Shown here: in pieces, positions 1,687-7,564 of the stretch
How positions within the stretch are numbered: the stretch's first letter is position 1
Layout of the letters: every line of letters starts with the position of its first letter
DNA from: a virus
Strand: one strand, 5' to 3'
Virus record (IMG/VR): IMGVR_UViG_3300010885_052394
Coordinates: 1-35,710 of that record
Length of the DNA: 35,710 bases
Made by a program: the position numbers and the translations under genes
Notes under the pieces: model-generated
The model's database searches: none
The model's input: the letters and a program-made list of their open reading frames with translations, nothing else
Told to the model about the DNA's origin: nothing

Positions 1687-2572
1687 TACATTCGAAGCCC
1701 TCAAGCAAAATCGCAAGTCAAACTTTGATAAGCTGACTGCAGAGTTGACCAAAGTCAACCAGAACTACCAGGACAGCGGTGATGACAAGAACCAGTGGAA
1801 ACCAGACGTCGACAAAGCCGGCAACGGCTATGCGGTCATTCGTTTTCTTCCAGCTCCAGCTGGGGAAGACGTTCCCTTTGTTCGCATTTGGGACCATGGG
1901 TTCCAAGGTGATGGAGGTTGGTATATCGAGCGTTCGCTTACCACCCTCGGGAAGCCCGACCCCGTCTCCGAGTACAACACGAAGCTCTGGAACTCCGGGA
2001 TTGAGGCTAATAAAGAGATAGTCCGCAAGCAGAAGCGCCGCCTCTCTTACTACTCAAACATCTACGTAGTTAAGGACCCAACTCGCCCTGAGAACGAGGG
2101 CAAGGTGTTCATCTACAAGTACGGCAAGAAGATCTTCGATAAGATCAACGAGGCCATGCACCCACAGTTCAGCGATGAGAAGCCGATCAACCCATTTGAT
2201 CTCTGGGAGGGCGCTAACTTCAAGTTGAAGATCCGCAACGTAGCTGACTACCGCAACTACGACAAGTCGGAGTTCGACAAAGCCGGCCCACTTCTCGATG
2301 ATGATGAGGCACTTGAGAATGTTTGGAAGAGTGAGCACTCACTTCAAGAGCTCATCGATCCAAAGAACTTCAAGTCTTACGAGGAGCTCAAAGCGCGCCT
2401 CGAGCGGGCTCTCGGTGTAGCTGACAGCGCTCCTAAGACTTCTTACCGCGATGAGGAGGCGTTCCCAGCTCCGCAGAAGTCAGCTGAGCCAAAGGCAGCT
2501 CCGGTAGCTTCCGCACCGTGGGATGACGAGGACGACGACCTCAGCTTCTTCAAGAAGCTGGCTAAGGACTAA
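1679..2572 (+). CDS. 32: Single-stranded DNA-binding protein gp32
   Basis: This 297-residue protein coats ssDNA in replication, recombination and repair. Family landmarks are AGNGYAVIRFLP, NIYVVKDP, ENEGKVFIYKYGKKIFDKI and PFDLWEGANFKLK. The N-terminus has a basic NRKS patch like the T4 cooperativity (LAST) motif, and the end is acidic (DDEDDDLSFF), as in the partner-binding tail of T4 gp32. The ATG at 1679 is preceded by GGAG at 1668-1671, an ideal spacing. The frame runs further upstream to 1595, but those residues are not family-like. The protein contains no cysteine, so the T4 His-Cys3 zinc site is absent. All 13 arginine codons are CGN, unlike the structural genes. The stop overlaps the stop of the convergent tape-measure gene. 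Confidence 0.95.
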   Translation: MTNTFEALKQNRKSNFDKLTAELTKVNQNYQDSGDDKNQWKPDVDKAGNGYAVIRFLPAPAGEDVPFVRIWDHGFQGDGGWYIERSLTTLGKPDPVSEYNTKLWNSGIEANKEIVRKQKRRLSYYSNIYVVKDPTRPENEGKVFIYKYGKKIFDKINEAMHPQFSDEKPINPFDLWEGANFKLKIRNVADYRNYDKSEFDKAGPLLDDDEALENVWKSEHSLQELIDPKNFKSYEELKARLERALGVADSAPKTSYRDEEAFPAPQKSAEPKAAPVASAPWDDEDDDLSFFKKLAKD

Positions 2573-4995
2573 GCGCCAAAAGCGTAAGTACCGTATAGGG
2601 TATTATCCCACGGGTCCGGTTCTTTTGTAGGAGTAATGATGCCGGAGGATCCACCGCCTCCGGCATTTCCATGATTGACGTTGTTTATAGTATCACCCTG
2701 CTTGATGATGGTAGTGGACCCCCCATCTTGCCTGTCCCTGTTCAAGTTCTGCAGAGCTGACGCTGATGTCTTCTGAGCTGGAACTAAGTCGTCATCTTGC
2801 TGCAGCTCTTCTGGATGAGCTTTGAAGTAAGCTGCCGGATCTTCGTTGATCTCTTTCATCTTCCTAGCTGCTTCTATAGCTTTCTTCTGGTCAGCCGTGT
2901 ACAGCTCTTCTGGCACTTTCTTGTCATCGATCATGACCGGAACGTTACCTAAGAGAGAAGCGTGGTGGTCTTGCTCGGGAATTCCCATTCTCATAGCGAA
3001 GTCGTCGATCATGTTTAGAGACTTGATAGTATCTTCTTCTTGCTTTGCTTGCTCTTTTAGAATGCTCTCTTCGAAGCTGCCCTTCTCTACGTTTCCTGAA
3101 TTGAGCTTTCTTCTAGCTCCGGACTCGCGATCAACTCTACCGCGACCTCTCGCCCTGAAATCTCCTTTGTCAGCTAAGTTTCCGCGCTGAGCTTGCTGCT
3201 GGTCAAGCGATGCGCTGTTGTCTTCTGGAGATTCATAAAGTCCAGTGAAGTTACCCATAGCATCATATACTGGAGCTCCCTGAGCAGCTTGGTTCTTTTT
3301 GTCGACCTCTTCTTTAGAGAGCTTTCTTCCGGTGCTCGGGTCGAACTCTGCGTTTTTAGCGTTGTCCATTCCCCTCTCTAAGTCACTCATTGGCTTCTTC
3401 TCAGAGTCAGGAGATGCTGACCACAGACTTCTCAGCGCCTGCTCCGCCGCGGCCGTGATGCCACTTAATCTCTCTTTTGCGTCAGGATCCGATTCAGGGT
3501 ATAGCGGGCTGCCGTCTTCATCTTGATATATCTCAGCATAGAGATCTCTAGCAAAGCTAGCTATGTCGACTCCGATCGACGCGGCAGTTCCAGCTCCAGG
3601 TATAGCTCCAGCAACACCCGACAGCAGGTCCATTCCAGCTCCGACCCAGTCGCCTGAACCTAAGACCCTAGACAAGCCAAATCCCAGACCAACTAGAGCT
3701 CCAGCAATTGGTATCTTTCTTAGAGCTGAGCCTATGCCCTTCTTTGCCGCTAGCTTTGCAGCTACTGTAGCTATCTCCTGCTCACTCTTCTTGGTGACGG
3801 TCTTAGCTACTTTCTTTGCTACTCCGCTCTCCACTTTCTTAGCTGTAGTTGCTTCAGCATCTTTAGCTGCGGTCTTAGCGACGTTGGTCTCAGCTGATTT
3901 CGGTGCTTCAGGCTTTACTTCAGGCTTTACTTCAGGCTTTACTTCAGGCTTTACTTCAGGCTTTACTTCAGGCTTTACTTCAGGCTTTGGCTCGGGTTTA
4001 ACTGTATTCTCTACTGTAGTAGCTAAGCTCTCTATAGCGAAAGGTGCAGCTACGACTGCAGCTACTCCAAGTCCTTCTAGAACGGTAGCATCTTCTCCTA
4101 GACTTTTTAGAGTGTCCAGCAGCTTCTGACCAGCATCACCAGCAGTCTCTACTGCCGATGATAGCATCTCTTTTCTCTTCTCGGGATCATTCTCGCTATA
4201 GTAGGCTAGAGCGAACTCTACACCGAGGCCAGCTGCCGCGAACGCAGCGAGTATAGCTGCTTTCTTTCCGACGAACTTAGCTCCAGCACCAATAGCGCTA
4301 GCGAACTTGCTGAACTTTCCCCTACCAGCACCGAGCTTCATCTTTCTAGACTCGAGCGCAGCGCCTCTCAGCGGCTTTCCGTTCTTGTCTAAGTGAACTT
4401 CACCTTTGCCAGCTTTGCTTCCGGGTCTAACTTTTGTCTTTGGCTCTTCTACTTTAGGGGAGCGTCCTCCAAACAAGCTAGTGCCAATTCCAGCTAGACC
4501 TGATAGCAGACCACCGAATCCTCCTCCACTACCGCTATCGTCTCCTTGACCACCAGAACTTCCAGATGCTCCAGCTCCAGTTGAAGAGAATCCAGTCTTA
4601 GACTGGCTCTGCTTTAACTGCTCAGCTGCTCTGGTCTGAGCTAGATTGCTGGTCGTGAGTAAGCGATTAAGAAGCTCGTTGTTGGACTCGTAGTACTTCT
4701 GGTTAGATGACAGTATCGCGTCGAGAGTAGTTCTAGCTTTCTTTATCTCATCTCTTATGACAATTTGATCTTTTCTAAGATCACCTATATTCTTAGCTAC
4801 ATCCGACTCCGGAGCTAAGCTGGTAGTAGAAGATGCCATTACTTTAGATGCAGGTGTAGCCAGCGCAGCTCCGATCTGGGCTTTTCTGGTCTTGAGCGCT
4901 ATCAGCTCTTCTTGAGCTGCCGCGACTGCGCGGAGGTTCTTTCCCTCGCTCTTCTCAATGATCGCTTTTAGAATATCTGAGTTGTCGTTTGCCAT
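2569..4995 (-). CDS. Probable tail tape-measure / tail core protein
   Basis: The product has 808 residues. Residues 1-130 are charged and helical, likely coiled coil. Residues 134-177 are Gly/Ser-rich. Hydrophobic Ala/Gly-rich helices follow near 240-265, 305-325 and 430-490. A KPEV repeat lies at about 333-364, and the C-terminal part is polar with a Gly-rich linker. Hydrophobic helices within a long helical protein are typical of tape measures, which set tail length and pass into the host envelope. I did not recognise sequence similarity to T4 gp29. The main evidence is position: its ATG overlaps the stop of the frameshifted gp51-like reading frame (TGATG), just as the tape measure follows the chaperone in lambda-like tails. 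An internal hub protein is the alternative. Confidence 0.6.
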   Translation of the reverse strand: MANDNSDILKAIIEKSEGKNLRAVAAAQEELIALKTRKAQIGAALATPASKVMASSTTSLAPESDVAKNIGDLRKDQIVIRDEIKKARTTLDAILSSNQKYYESNNELLNRLLTTSNLAQTRAAEQLKQSQSKTGFSSTGAGASGSSGGQGDDSGSGGGFGGLLSGLAGIGTSLFGGRSPKVEEPKTKVRPGSKAGKGEVHLDKNGKPLRGAALESRKMKLGAGRGKFSKFASAIGAGAKFVGKKAAILAAFAAAGLGVEFALAYYSENDPEKRKEMLSSAVETAGDAGQKLLDTLKSLGEDATVLEGLGVAAVVAAPFAIESLATTVENTVKPEPKPEVKPEVKPEVKPEVKPEVKPEVKPEAPKSAETNVAKTAAKDAEATTAKKVESGVAKKVAKTVTKKSEQEIATVAAKLAAKKGIGSALRKIPIAGALVGLGFGLSRVLGSGDWVGAGMDLLSGVAGAIPGAGTAASIGVDIASFARDLYAEIYQDEDGSPLYPESDPDAKERLSGITAAAEQALRSLWSASPDSEKKPMSDLERGMDNAKNAEFDPSTGRKLSKEEVDKKNQAAQGAPVYDAMGNFTGLYESPEDNSASLDQQQAQRGNLADKGDFRARGRGRVDRESGARRKLNSGNVEKGSFEESILKEQAKQEEDTIKSLNMIDDFAMRMGIPEQDHHASLLGNVPVMIDDKKVPEELYTADQKKAIEAARKMKEINEDPAAYFKAHPEELQQDDDLVPAQKTSASALQNLNRDRQDGGSTTIIKQGDTINNVNHGNAGGGGSSGIITPTKEPDPWDNTLYGTYAFGA
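2639..2666 (+). terminator. Hairpin 67 bases after gp32, possible terminator
   Basis: ATGCCGGAGG and CCTCCGGCAT form a perfect 10-base-pair stem around an 8-base loop, followed by TTTCC on the plus strand. It could end the gp59/gp32 transcript before it runs antisense into the tape-measure gene. The U-tract is short, so intrinsic termination is uncertain. The hairpin lies inside the coding region of the opposite gene, where it encodes a Gly-rich linker. Confidence 0.45.
3911..3982 (-). repeat. Six perfect 12-bp tandem repeats (KPEV)
   Basis: The plus-strand unit GGCTTTACTTCA occurs six times without a mismatch, followed by degenerate copies. Read on the minus strand it encodes KPEV repeats flanked by KPEP and KPEA. 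The result is a stiff, charged linker between two hydrophobic parts of the probable tape-measure protein. Because the unit is a whole number of codons, copy number can change without breaking the frame. Confidence 0.95.
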
Positions 4996-5171
4996 CAGCC
5001 CTGTCTTTTCTTATTCTGTTCCTCGACATATTGCGATATCATCTCAACGTAGATGTCCCTCTCATAGGGGTACAGATTATTCAAGTCAGCTATTGAGTAT
5101 TTATGATGATGCACCAGCGCGAACTCTATTTTATAAAAGAGGGCCACGCTGCTGTACCCAGTTAAAGTGTA
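4995..5171 (-). CDS. 51: gp51-like extension of gp26, reached by -1 frameshift
   Basis: This frame is open from the slippery site at 5177-5171 to a TGA at 4997-4995 and codes for 58 residues. Fused after gp26 residue 228, it would give a 286-residue protein. It contains LNNLYPYERDIYVEMISQYV followed by a charged end, which resembles C-terminal extensions of tail-assembly chaperones and gp51. It has no ATG; a GTG near the beginning could give a separate 50-residue protein. The upstream frame is closed by a TAA before the slippery site. The TGA overlaps the ATG of the tape-measure gene (TGATG). In lambda the G/GT chaperone wraps the tape measure and recruits tube subunits. Separate translation from the GTG is the main alternative. 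Confidence 0.72.
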   Translation of the reverse strand, partial: YTLTGYSSVALFYKIEFALVHHHKYSIADLNNLYPYERDIYVEMISQYVEEQNKKRQG

Positions 5172-5854
5172 AAAAAATCTTTGAGCCCACTCAGCTTGAC
5201 CTCCTTCTTAGTTCCGTCCGGCATGAGAACTTCCGAGTCAAGTTCTACGACGGGCATTGACTTGAAGAACTCAGTCATCTTCGCTGTATTCTCCATTGGA
5301 AGTGATAAGATGAATGTCTCTAGCTCATCTTTAGTAAAGTCGCTGTAGACTTTATTGTCATCCATAACGCTGACTATGCAGTCGATAAACACCGAGAAGA
5401 CTTTATCTGGATCAGAATCGTCTTCTTCTAGAGATATAACTTGACTCAAGTTTGGGTAGCGCATCTTTATTGAGATGCTATCGTTGATCTTTATTATGCT
5501 GCTGTGACCTTCTTTGAACTTGACTTTAACTTGCCCTAGGTCTATCTTGAACGGCACTCTCTTTCCATCATTCTCTAAGAACATATCCACCTCATTACTG
5601 ATGGACACTTTTCTCAAGTTGACGAATATGTACTCGATATCAAAGATCGCTAGCTTATCTACGTCGATGTCATCGAATACGCAGTTGCGTATGATCTGCT
5701 TTAAGCAGGAGATGACCTCCTCTAAGTCATCTGACATCCTCACCATCAACAGGAGCTTCTCTTCCTGAACGGTGTACGGTCTAAAAGATATCGTCTTATT
5801 TGTAGAAGGTACTACCAGCTTGTATACTGGGTGCTTAATCTCTGGTAACGGCAT
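5162..5854 (-). CDS. 26: Baseplate hub / tail-assembly chaperone gp26-like
   Basis: This 230-residue protein resembles T4 gp26 (208 residues) and the T4_baseplate family. It has FRPYTVQEEKLLLM near the N-terminus (about 24-37), then a cysteine region and DIDVDKLAIFDIEYIFVNLR, the typical core. In T4, gp26 is needed for baseplate hub assembly. Here the gene lies between a tail-tube-like gene and a probable tape measure, the position of the lambda G chaperone. The C-terminus carries a T_TTT_TTT slippery site that would extend it with a gp51-like segment. A GAGG lies about 8 bases upstream of the ATG at 5854, and 17 bases separate it from the preceding gene. Confidence 0.8.
   Translation of the reverse strand: MPLPEIKHPVYKLVVPSTNKTISFRPYTVQEEKLLLMVRMSDDLEEVISCLKQIIRNCVFDDIDVDKLAIFDIEYIFVNLRKVSISNEVDMFLENDGKRVPFKIDLGQVKVKFKEGHSSIIKINDSISIKMRYPNLSQVISLEEDDSDPDKVFSVFIDCIVSVMDDNKVYSDFTKDELETFILSLPMENTAKMTEFFKSMPVVELDSEVLMPDGTKKEVKLSGLKDFFTL
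5171..5206 (-). promoter_or_regulatory. Slippery heptamer T_TTT_TTT with upstream SD-like sequence
   Basis: On the minus strand the end of gp26 reads GAT TTT TTT ACA CTT TAA, so T_TTT_TTT (5177-5171) is in the right phase for a -1 slip, two sense codons before the stop. A perfect AAGGAGGT lies at 5206-5199, 21 bases upstream. Internal Shine-Dalgarno sequences stimulate -1 slippage in E. coli dnaX, though at a shorter spacing. I saw no convincing downstream hairpin. Confidence 0.72.
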
Positions 5855-5871
5855 AGTATATCCTCATCACA

Positions 5872-6540
5872 TTAAAAATTATCTTTATTGTATCCCGGAG
5901 CTAATCTCTGGTCTATCTTAGGTAAGTTACTCTGACTCTGCGATGTCTGCGGTACAGTCGAGTTAGGTACGCTCTTCGTGTTCCAAGTATTGTAGGCCAT
6001 CACAATTGGGAGCCTAGCGAGTGAGTCGTTCTGCTCCCATCCAACTCCAACATCTCCCATCTGAACTGGGAACGCGTGCACTAGAGTGTAGACGGTGATG
6101 TCTTTACTATCGGGAGTCATGAAGTGAATGTCCACAGTTCCCTCGTACTCCTCTGGCCATGACCACTCACCGTAGTCGAGGCCTGAAGAGTTAGCTACGC
6201 CGACACCAATTCTACTCCAGTTATTAATCAGAGCCATCCACTTTGTGAAGAACTCAATGACGCTTCCCTTAGCGTCTATCATGAAAGAAAGCTGGACATC
6301 ATTGAAGTCCGCGCTCAGCGGTCTCTTCTCCGTCGTGCCGTATCCGGGAGTCTTGACGTTCTGAGTTCCATAGCTGAGTCCCGGAAGAGAAGCCGCATCG
6401 CAGAAAAAGCTAGCTTGCCTAGAGTACTCATTTCCAATTAGAGATGCCGGAGGTGTTATGGATACGTAGAAGTGAGATGGCTTAGCCAACCCGCCGAGAG
6501 CGCTTATAGCGCTTGTTATGTCATTTATTGAGAACGCCAT
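5872..6540 (-). CDS. Tail-tube-fold protein (gp19/gp54-like)
   Basis: The 222-residue product has the pattern of phage tail-tube proteins. KPSHFYVSITPP forms the first strand. The next segment is FFCDAASLPGLSYGTQNV, the usual Cys-Ala-Leu-Pro-Gly turn. FNDVQLSFMIDAKGSVIEFF and a Trp-containing helix (KWMALINNW) follow, and then the strands TVDIHFM and TVYTLVHAFPVQMG. T4 gp19 and the tube-initiating baseplate proteins gp54 and gp48 share this fold. Its location in the baseplate cluster favours a tube-initiator (gp54-like) over the major tube protein, but sequence reading cannot settle this. Its start overlaps the stop of the upstream gene by one base (TAATG). A TATAAATA box lies 166 bases upstream. 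Confidence 0.68.
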   Translation of the reverse strand: MAFSINDITSAISALGGLAKPSHFYVSITPPASLIGNEYSRQASFFCDAASLPGLSYGTQNVKTPGYGTTEKRPLSADFNDVQLSFMIDAKGSVIEFFTKWMALINNWSRIGVGVANSSGLDYGEWSWPEEYEGTVDIHFMTPDSKDITVYTLVHAFPVQMGDVGVGWEQNDSLARLPIVMAYNTWNTKSVPNSTVPQTSQSQSNLPKIDQRLAPGYNKDNF

Positions 6541-7127
6541 TATGCTCTTCTTATTTTGTTCTGTGAGTCTGAGTATACCTGCCTCTTGTTGACAGTGAAT
6601 CTCTCAAGTGGCAGGAACAGCGCTATATCCCACTCGTTCGATGGAACTAAGAGGAACCTAGTCTGAAGCTGCGAGAAGAGGTACCTCTTTACGCACGGTC
6701 TAAAGTATTTATACTTAGCTGAGCCGTTGAGCAGGTCGTACGACATCCTGAGCTTGGTCTTCTCATCGAACTTCTGGTTAGTTGACAGATCATAGAGAGC
6801 GTCCATCAACCTAGCCCTGAGAAGGTGAGGTAGGTAGTGGAGGTTCATTCCCAAGAACCCATCGGCGTCAACTGAGAATGGAAACACGAGTGGGAACTTA
6901 TCGTAGTAGGGCAGAGTGTCTTTGTGCTTAGCGTCGTAGGCGAACATGTACATGTACCCCGGCATCGGCTTCGTTCTCTGGAGCTCAGTGTGACCAGCGA
7001 CGAGCTTCTTCTCGTTGACTCTAGCTACTTCCCTAGCTTTCTCTCTGAACCAATCTCTAGAGTCCAAGAACCCCGGCCTCGCGAAGCTCGTCCTGCCTTG
7101 CTCGAGTATGTCAGCAAATAATGGCAT
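6540..7127 (-). CDS. 2: Probable DNA-end protector (gp2-like)
   Basis: This 195-residue protein has a highly conserved-looking core: GYMYMFAYDAKHKDTLPYYD, then FPLVFPF, GFLGMNLHYLP, RARLMDALYDL, FRPCVKRYLFSQLQTRFL and EWDIALFLPLERF. I associate this family with proteins called gp2, the DNA-end protector, in marine T4-like phages. T4 gp2 is longer, about 274 residues. It binds DNA ends in the filled head and guards them against host RecBCD. The T4 order of gene 4 followed by gene 2 on the strand opposite gene 53 is kept here and supports the call. It overlaps gp4 and the next gene by one base each. If it is not gp2, it is a conserved virion protein of unknown role. Confidence 0.52.
   Translation of the reverse strand: MPLFADILEQGRTSFARPGFLDSRDWFREKAREVARVNEKKLVAGHTELQRTKPMPGYMYMFAYDAKHKDTLPYYDKFPLVFPFSVDADGFLGMNLHYLPHLLRARLMDALYDLSTNQKFDEKTKLRMSYDLLNGSAKYKYFRPCVKRYLFSQLQTRFLLVPSNEWDIALFLPLERFTVNKRQVYSDSQNKIRRA
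6706..6713 (-). promoter_or_regulatory. Possible late promoter TATAAATA within the gp2-like gene
   Basis: The minus strand reads GTATAAATAC here, a perfect match to the T4 late -10 element. It lies 166 bases before the tail-tube-like gene and could raise expression of the tail genes downstream. It also encodes KYKY in the gp2-like protein, so it may be chance. Confidence 0.35.
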
Positions 7128-7564
7128 TACTTAACACCTATGTCTTTCTCAGTCATGATCTTGAACTCCCAGTTCCTGTCTCTACAGAACTCGGTGGCAG
7201 CTCTCCACTTAGCTTGATTGACGCCGTAAGTGAGTACCTCATTGATGTACTTTCTAGACCTCTCGCTTTTTCTGACTGGCTCTAGGGTCTGTGCGTACGG
7301 CTTTACTTCTATGATAAGAGTATTTATCTTGTCTTCGTTAGTTCTCATCTGGACATAGAAGTCCGGAAAGTACCTGTGTATCCTGTTGTCGACTGGGGAC
7401 CTGTAAGGTATCACGACTTCTTCTGAGCCCCACTTTATAACACTCGTGTGGCTGTCAAAGTACCTCATGAGTCTGAGCTCCCATAAGCTCCTGTAGATTA
7501 TGTTGCTCACGTCTCCGATGTACTTCTGCGGGAACTTTGGCTTGAACTTTCCTTTGTAAGACAT
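7127..7564 (-). CDS. 4: Head-completion protein gp4 (TnsA-like nuclease fold)
   Basis: The 145-residue product closely follows T4 gp4 (150 residues, also called gp50/65). It starts GKFKPKFPQKYIGD, then IIYRSLWELRLMRYFD, WGSEEVVIPYRSP, HRYFPDFYVQ, and a TLIIEVKPY strand. The glutamate in the YRSLWE segment, the Asp of YFPDF and the Glu-x-Lys of IEVKP have the arrangement of the PD-(D/E)xK endonuclease core found in TnsA. The protein acts late in head maturation, before tail attachment, and may trim or seal packaged DNA. It is the first gene of the minus-strand late unit, 32 bases after a TATAAATA box, and its stop overlaps the next start (TAATG). Confidence 0.93.
   Translation of the reverse strand: MSYKGKFKPKFPQKYIGDVSNIIYRSLWELRLMRYFDSHTSVIKWGSEEVVIPYRSPVDNRIHRYFPDFYVQMRTNEDKINTLIIEVKPYAQTLEPVRKSERSRKYINEVLTYGVNQAKWRAATEFCRDRNWEFKIMTEKDIGVK

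Follow-up and report, generated by a model that had tools for sequence, protein, structure and literature searches.

A predicted -1 frameshift joins gp26 to a gp51-like extension and would yield short and long tail-assembly chaperones in T4-like phages

Introduction

How a stretch of 58 codons lying in the -1 frame behind a gp26-family gene is expressed, and what it encodes, is the question raised by the minus strand of a 35,710-nt sequence from a T4-like marine phage (IMG/VR record IMGVR_UViG_3300010885_052394; this whole stretch is called the window). The frameshift that produces tail chaperones was described in a 2016 review as widely conserved "except T4" (PMC5009743). T4 assembly requires gp51, yet the finished particle lacks it, and both gp26 and gp51 have been catalogued as chaperones of hub assembly (PMC3004832), which fits a chaperone reading of the present locus. 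Comparative evidence indicates, with a probability of roughly 0.92, that gp26 and the -1 ORF constitute one gene for a tail-assembly chaperone pair, with short and long forms produced via -1 programmed frameshifting.

Layout of the gp26-gp51 locus

The gp26 reading frame ends GAT TTT TTT ACA CTT TAA, with the TAA at 5164-5162 of the minus strand (Table 1). A first-pass annotation of the same DNA had proposed an in-phase T_TTT_TTT just before this stop, a perfect AAGGAGGT 21 bases upstream of the heptamer, a -1 frame of 58 codons running to a TGATG that overlaps the next start, and a fusion of 286 residues; each of these was borne out, the joined product of gp26 and the -1 extension being 286 aa long.

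Table 1. Features of the gp26-gp51 locus and its neighbours in the window.
Feature	Position	Strand	Remarks
Tail-tube family protein, 222 aa, upstream of gp26	5872..6540	-	PF23849; phrog_45, E 3e-32
gp26 / TAC-N, 0-frame product, 230 aa	5162..5854	-	PF12322, phrog_150; profile E 1.2e-51
AAGGAGGT, perfect Shine-Dalgarno (SD)-like element, 21 nt 5' of heptamer; possible stimulator	5199..5206	-
Slippery heptamer T_TTT_TTT, in gp26 phase	5171..5177	-	kept in 92/93 relatives
Predicted stem-loop, begins 12 nt 3' of heptamer; possible stimulator	5108..5158	-	-20 kcal/mol, z -2.8
gp51-like extension, 58 codons, -1 frame; putative C-terminal part of long chaperone TAC-NC	4998..5171	-
TGA stop of -1 frame; shares TGATG (4997-4993) with the ATG of the next ORF	4995..4997	-
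808-aa ORF, tape-measure position	2569..4995	-	tape-measure role assigned from position only

Profile searches placed gp26 in PF12322 with 175.9 bits against a curated cut-off of 24.5, and the proposal that the extension is gp51-like was upheld by its match to phrog_634 with an E of 4e-19 (4.1e-19). The AlphaFold model of gp26 had a mean pLDDT of 94. When this model was compared with the PDB by Foldseek, no chaperone of known structure matched significantly, the HK97 tail assembly chaperone 2ob9 appearing at a non-significant E of 2.1 (TM 0.37 on target), and against viral models the named matches were mainly baseplate-hub/gp26-type proteins. The extension alone yielded a predicted three-helix model of moderate confidence, and its profile, run against PDB sequences, returned noise only.

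Conservation of frame and slippery heptamer

A run of seven T is expected by chance 2.77 times per window, so the significance of the heptamer has to rest on comparison, for which three samples of relatives were surveyed. In the first, anchored on gp26 and drawn from IMG/VR and phage records, gp51 occupied the gp26 -1 frame in 91/91 cases and an in-phase heptamer (T_TTT_TTH) was present in 92/93. The second, anchored on gp51, which avoids selecting on the gp26 end, shared nine loci with the first and gave 79/79 for the frame and 78/79 for the heptamer, whereas the third, comprising contigs within prokaryote assemblies, gave 46/46 and 45/46, respectively, with G_TTT_TTT as the exception. The sole heptamer exception of the second sample (L133) has a truncated gp26; at 1800-1960 this locus has gp26 without its C-terminal region and the slippery site, with gp51 kept, and resembles a deletion or an assembly fault.

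Searching with tblastn detected the extension in 565 phage records at E<=1, chiefly cyanophages. In P-SSM2, S-PM2, Sinorhizobium phiM19, Pelagibacter phage Mosig, Stenotrophomonas DLP_6, and Ochrobactrum ORM_20, the extension follows gp26 in the -1 frame and the gp26 end carries TTT TTC or TTT TTT, and the same arrangement was found in Aeromonas phiAS5, Vibrio VH7D, Stenotrophomonas Yut2, Agrobacterium OLIVR6, B23, Melnitz, and S-RIM4. Comparison of homologous gp26-gp51 junctions, which the first-pass annotation had suggested as a check, thus revealed conservation of both slippery site and phase in Kyanoviridae, Aeromonas, Vibrio (Schizotequatrovirus), rhizobial, and Stenotrophomonas phages.

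Nucleotide constraint was evaluated in 78 lineages less than 80% identical to each other. The residue preceding FF varies among them (S, D, N, T, or A), and the codon preceding TTT TTY (AGT, GAT, TCT, AAT, ACT, or GCT) ends in T in all 78 (log10 P -17.7 from codon usage), and the first Phe of FF is TTT in all 78 (log10 P -10.9), both values assuming independent lineages and therefore being overstated, with a clear direction. Other FF pairs in the same genes have TTC first in 42/79, and elsewhere in the 78 gp26 relatives an in-phase T_TTT_TTY was detected at 4 of 15,522 other codon positions. Exactly one codon separates the heptamer from the gp26 stop in 59/78 lineages; in L009, L212, and L228, the gp26 frame runs eight codons beyond the heptamer to its stop, as against the usual one.

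RNA elements flanking the heptamer

Among the relatives, SD-like pairing peaked for 8-mers starting 14-17 nt 5' of the heptamer, with a mean of -6.5 kcal/mol at -15 against a background of about 0.3. An SD-like element at -19..-12 was present in 60% of relatives, compared with 31% after synonymous recoding, and Glu in the SD-like region was encoded by GAG in 41/53 cases, compared with 29% in the background. The AAGGAGGT of the window pairs with the anti-SD at -12.2 kcal/mol at offset -29, farther upstream than in most relatives.

On the downstream side, 60-nt folding windows showed a mean z of -2.29 at offset 6, compared with 0.1 to -0.5 at distant positions, and strong stems stood directly 3' of the heptamer in 41/77 relatives, compared with 0-6 at control positions. 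The stem of relatives in group B has 9 bp, a 7-nt spacer, and five pairs with both sides changed, its covariation score being reached in 0/500 shuffles, and that of group K has 11 bp, a 5-nt spacer, and three such pairs. As both groups were picked for having a stem, their percentages of paired positions are biased, and it is the covariation and the slid-partner controls that are informative. The 3' end of the window's stem-loop lies at the same offset as that of the group B covarying stem. An Rfam scan of the frameshift site gave no match.

In E. coli dnaX, a -1 cassette of this type consists of an SD-like element about 10 nt upstream, the heptamer A_AAA_AAG, and a stem-loop 5-8 nt downstream. 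The present elements are of the same three kinds, differing in the heptamer, and dnaX-like spacing was seen in many relatives (14-17 nt upstream and 5-7 nt downstream), whereas in the window both spacings are longer, at 21 and 12 nt; since the stem begins at 12 nt, candidate stimulators are present there, but unusually spaced.

Under the proposed frameshift, most ribosomes would stop at the gp26 TAA to release the 230-aa short form (TAC-N), and a minority would slip -1 on T_TTT_TTT to produce the 286-aa long form (TAC-NC) carrying the gp51 domain, slippage probably being aided by the upstream SD-like pairing and the downstream stem. If the system works like lambda G/GT, the tape-measure protein would be coated by the part common to both forms, tail-tube subunits would be brought in by the gp51 part, and the short and long chaperones would be supplied in a fixed ratio; the lambda likeness and the tail-chaperone role that the first-pass annotation had seen in the extension fit this scheme. 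We infer the slippage, its rate, and the chaperone role from the conserved frame, the heptamer, the RNA elements, and homology to T4 gp51.

Alternative explanations

A small gp51 protein of its own, produced without any fusion by coupled termination-reinitiation at or just past the gp26 stop, is improbable. Database entries do treat gp51 as an independent gene, and an ATG lies within -8..+20 of the gp26 stop in 36/78 lineages, about half, but it is absent from the other 42/78, with no ATG, GTG, or TTG near the stop in 28/78 and only GTG or TTG in 14/78; in the window itself the sole candidate start is a GTG 17 nt further along, which no SD precedes. Some relatives do have an ATG just past the stop, an independent start of the kind that the first-pass annotation would have held against a fusion, but where this was checked, in group K, the ATG annotated for gp51 falls within the 5' arm of the covarying downstream stem. 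Conserved residues are moreover encoded in the frame ahead of any start, and a separate gp51 would leave unexplained both the invariant NNT TTT TTY and the loss of the heptamer alongside the fused gene, although the Vibrio phages K397 and K474, with TAATG and no heptamer, are in its favour.

Less probable still is RNA polymerase slippage on the T run, by which a fraction of mRNAs would carry the fusion in one frame; the T7 run of the window would suit it, but most relatives (47/78) have T6C, a short run, and the SD-like and stem elements, placed at ribosomal distances, would have no obvious role. That a single ORF was split by gene breakage, or by an indel introduced during sequencing or assembly, is barely credible, error-prone though homopolymers are. 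The same T7 in an independent contig from IMG/VR (L001; 7 mismatches over 5300 bases, 99.87% identity) shows that the run is not an assembly slip, and the same phase in nearly every lineage, including the isolates P-SSM2 and S-PM2, already refutes such a split. A chance ORF was rejected, as were assembly error and transcriptional slippage.

Two-gene genomes and the origin of the arrangement

Both T4 gp26 and T4 gp51 match PF12322, with gp51 running on into the extension; judged by sequence, the two are paralogues, gp51 being a gp26-like domain naturally fused to the extension. The first-pass annotation was right that genes 26 and 51 are separate in T4, where gene 51 lies on the strand opposite gene 26, but its equation of gp51 with the extension alone did not hold, T4 gp51 being a full-length gp26 paralogue to which the extension is joined. 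The distance between the FF-equivalent and the conserved FY is 13 residues in T4 gp51, the same as in the predicted window fusion, and T4 gp26 retains FF as GAG TTC TTT GAG, with no heptamer.

Among the complete phage records searched, heptamer-bearing genomes have a single PF12322 gene, whereas a pair of such genes, of which one bears a fused extension, and no heptamer were seen in T4, Ac42, SW69-9, and Campylobacter CC_R7. One PF12322 match was found in the window and one in a 71.7-kb near-identical contig, both records being fragments. One gp26-family gene with a heptamer as against two genes without one points to -1 frameshifting as the source of the short and long chaperones. CC_R7 resembles T4 in its two-gene state and differs in placement, its 246-aa fused long form and short form of ~225 aa (L012 928-1668; L187) lying ~10 kb apart.

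Vibrio K397 and K474 represent a third state, with one gene, gp51 in the -1 frame, no heptamer, and a TAATG overlap (gp51-like extension at L014 2218-2400 and L104 2220-2405), so that coupled initiation appears able to replace slippage, and a switch from frameshifting to coupled initiation is possible in these phages. With these two as the third state, the genomes checked either combine a slippery site with a single gene or have a gene pair and no such site, and gene duplication and frameshifting look interchangeable.

In the gp26/gp51 tree, the T4-type short and long forms made up one group (94/83) distinct from the frameshift types, which include the straboviruses phiAS5 and VH7D; this is consistent with duplication in the T4 lineage. 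As the tree is midpoint-rooted only and has long branches, the direction, with frameshifting ancestral and T4 derived, is one that we infer. We lean slightly towards the view that one stimulated cassette (SD-like element, T_TTT_TTY, and covarying stem) was ancestral across T4-like phages, that T4 swapped it for duplication with destruction of the slippery site, and that the hundreds of cyanophage "gp51 hub assembly catalyst" annotations would not be independent genes.

Relation to known systems

Like lambda G/GT, the locus has two ORFs, of which the second lies in the -1 frame and the first bears a slippery heptamer at its 3' end, and it follows a tail-tube-type gene and precedes a gene in tape-measure position; unlike it, the proteins belong to the PF12322 (T4 gp26/gp51) family, the heptamer is T_TTT_TTY, and relatives add the SD-like element and stem. 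T4 shares the protein family, with a short gp26 and a long gp51 carrying the extension, but has separate genes on opposite strands and no slippery site. The cyanophage "gp51 baseplate hub assembly catalyst" (T4-GC 12, phrog_634) is a homologous -1 extension past gp26 with T_TTT_TTC, differing in being annotated as an independent gene. Cyanophage gp51 was reported to be only ~20% of T4 gp51 length (Sullivan et al. 2010; PMC3037559), a truncated look that is explained if the extension belongs to a fusion. The chaperones of Vandenendeviridae and Andersonviridae likewise have a conserved -1 extension and a poly-T slippery motif near the TAC-N end, but the motif is GTTTTT and the phage families are others (PMC12846349).

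The first-pass annotation knew of no frameshift described at this place, but chaperone genes of T4-like phages, and poly-T slippery sites within them, are already on record. According to later papers that cite them, Vladimirov, Gautam and Davidson (2022, Virology 566:9-15) recognised which genes of T4-like phages encode the TACs; PRFect (PMC10885494) describes that work as finding, in some of these phages, a short gene alongside a fused long one, and in PMC12846349 it is the reference given for poly-T slippery sites in T4-like TAC-N genes. The frameshift chaperone is thus a kind already known, with the T4-like chaperones named in 2022, and the locus is less novel than first thought. No description of the SD-like element, the covarying stems, or the one-gene/two-gene exclusivity was found in the literature searched, although Vladimirov et al. 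(2022) may contain them. The present comparison indicates that a very abundant marine phage group makes its tail chaperones by recoding, and that gene callers mis-annotate the gp26-gp51 locus in many genomes.

Neighbouring genes

The 808-aa ORF in tape-measure position has hydrophobic stretches near residues 245-265 and 303-328 and a PEVK tandem repeat at 3888-3984 (minus strand), and profile searches gave it no tape-measure match. Farther upstream of gp26, a 145-aa ORF at 7127-7564 (minus strand) matches PF08722, the N-terminal domain of TnsA-like endonucleases (E 8e-23), and, by synteny with S-PM2, may encode a gp4-type head completion protein.
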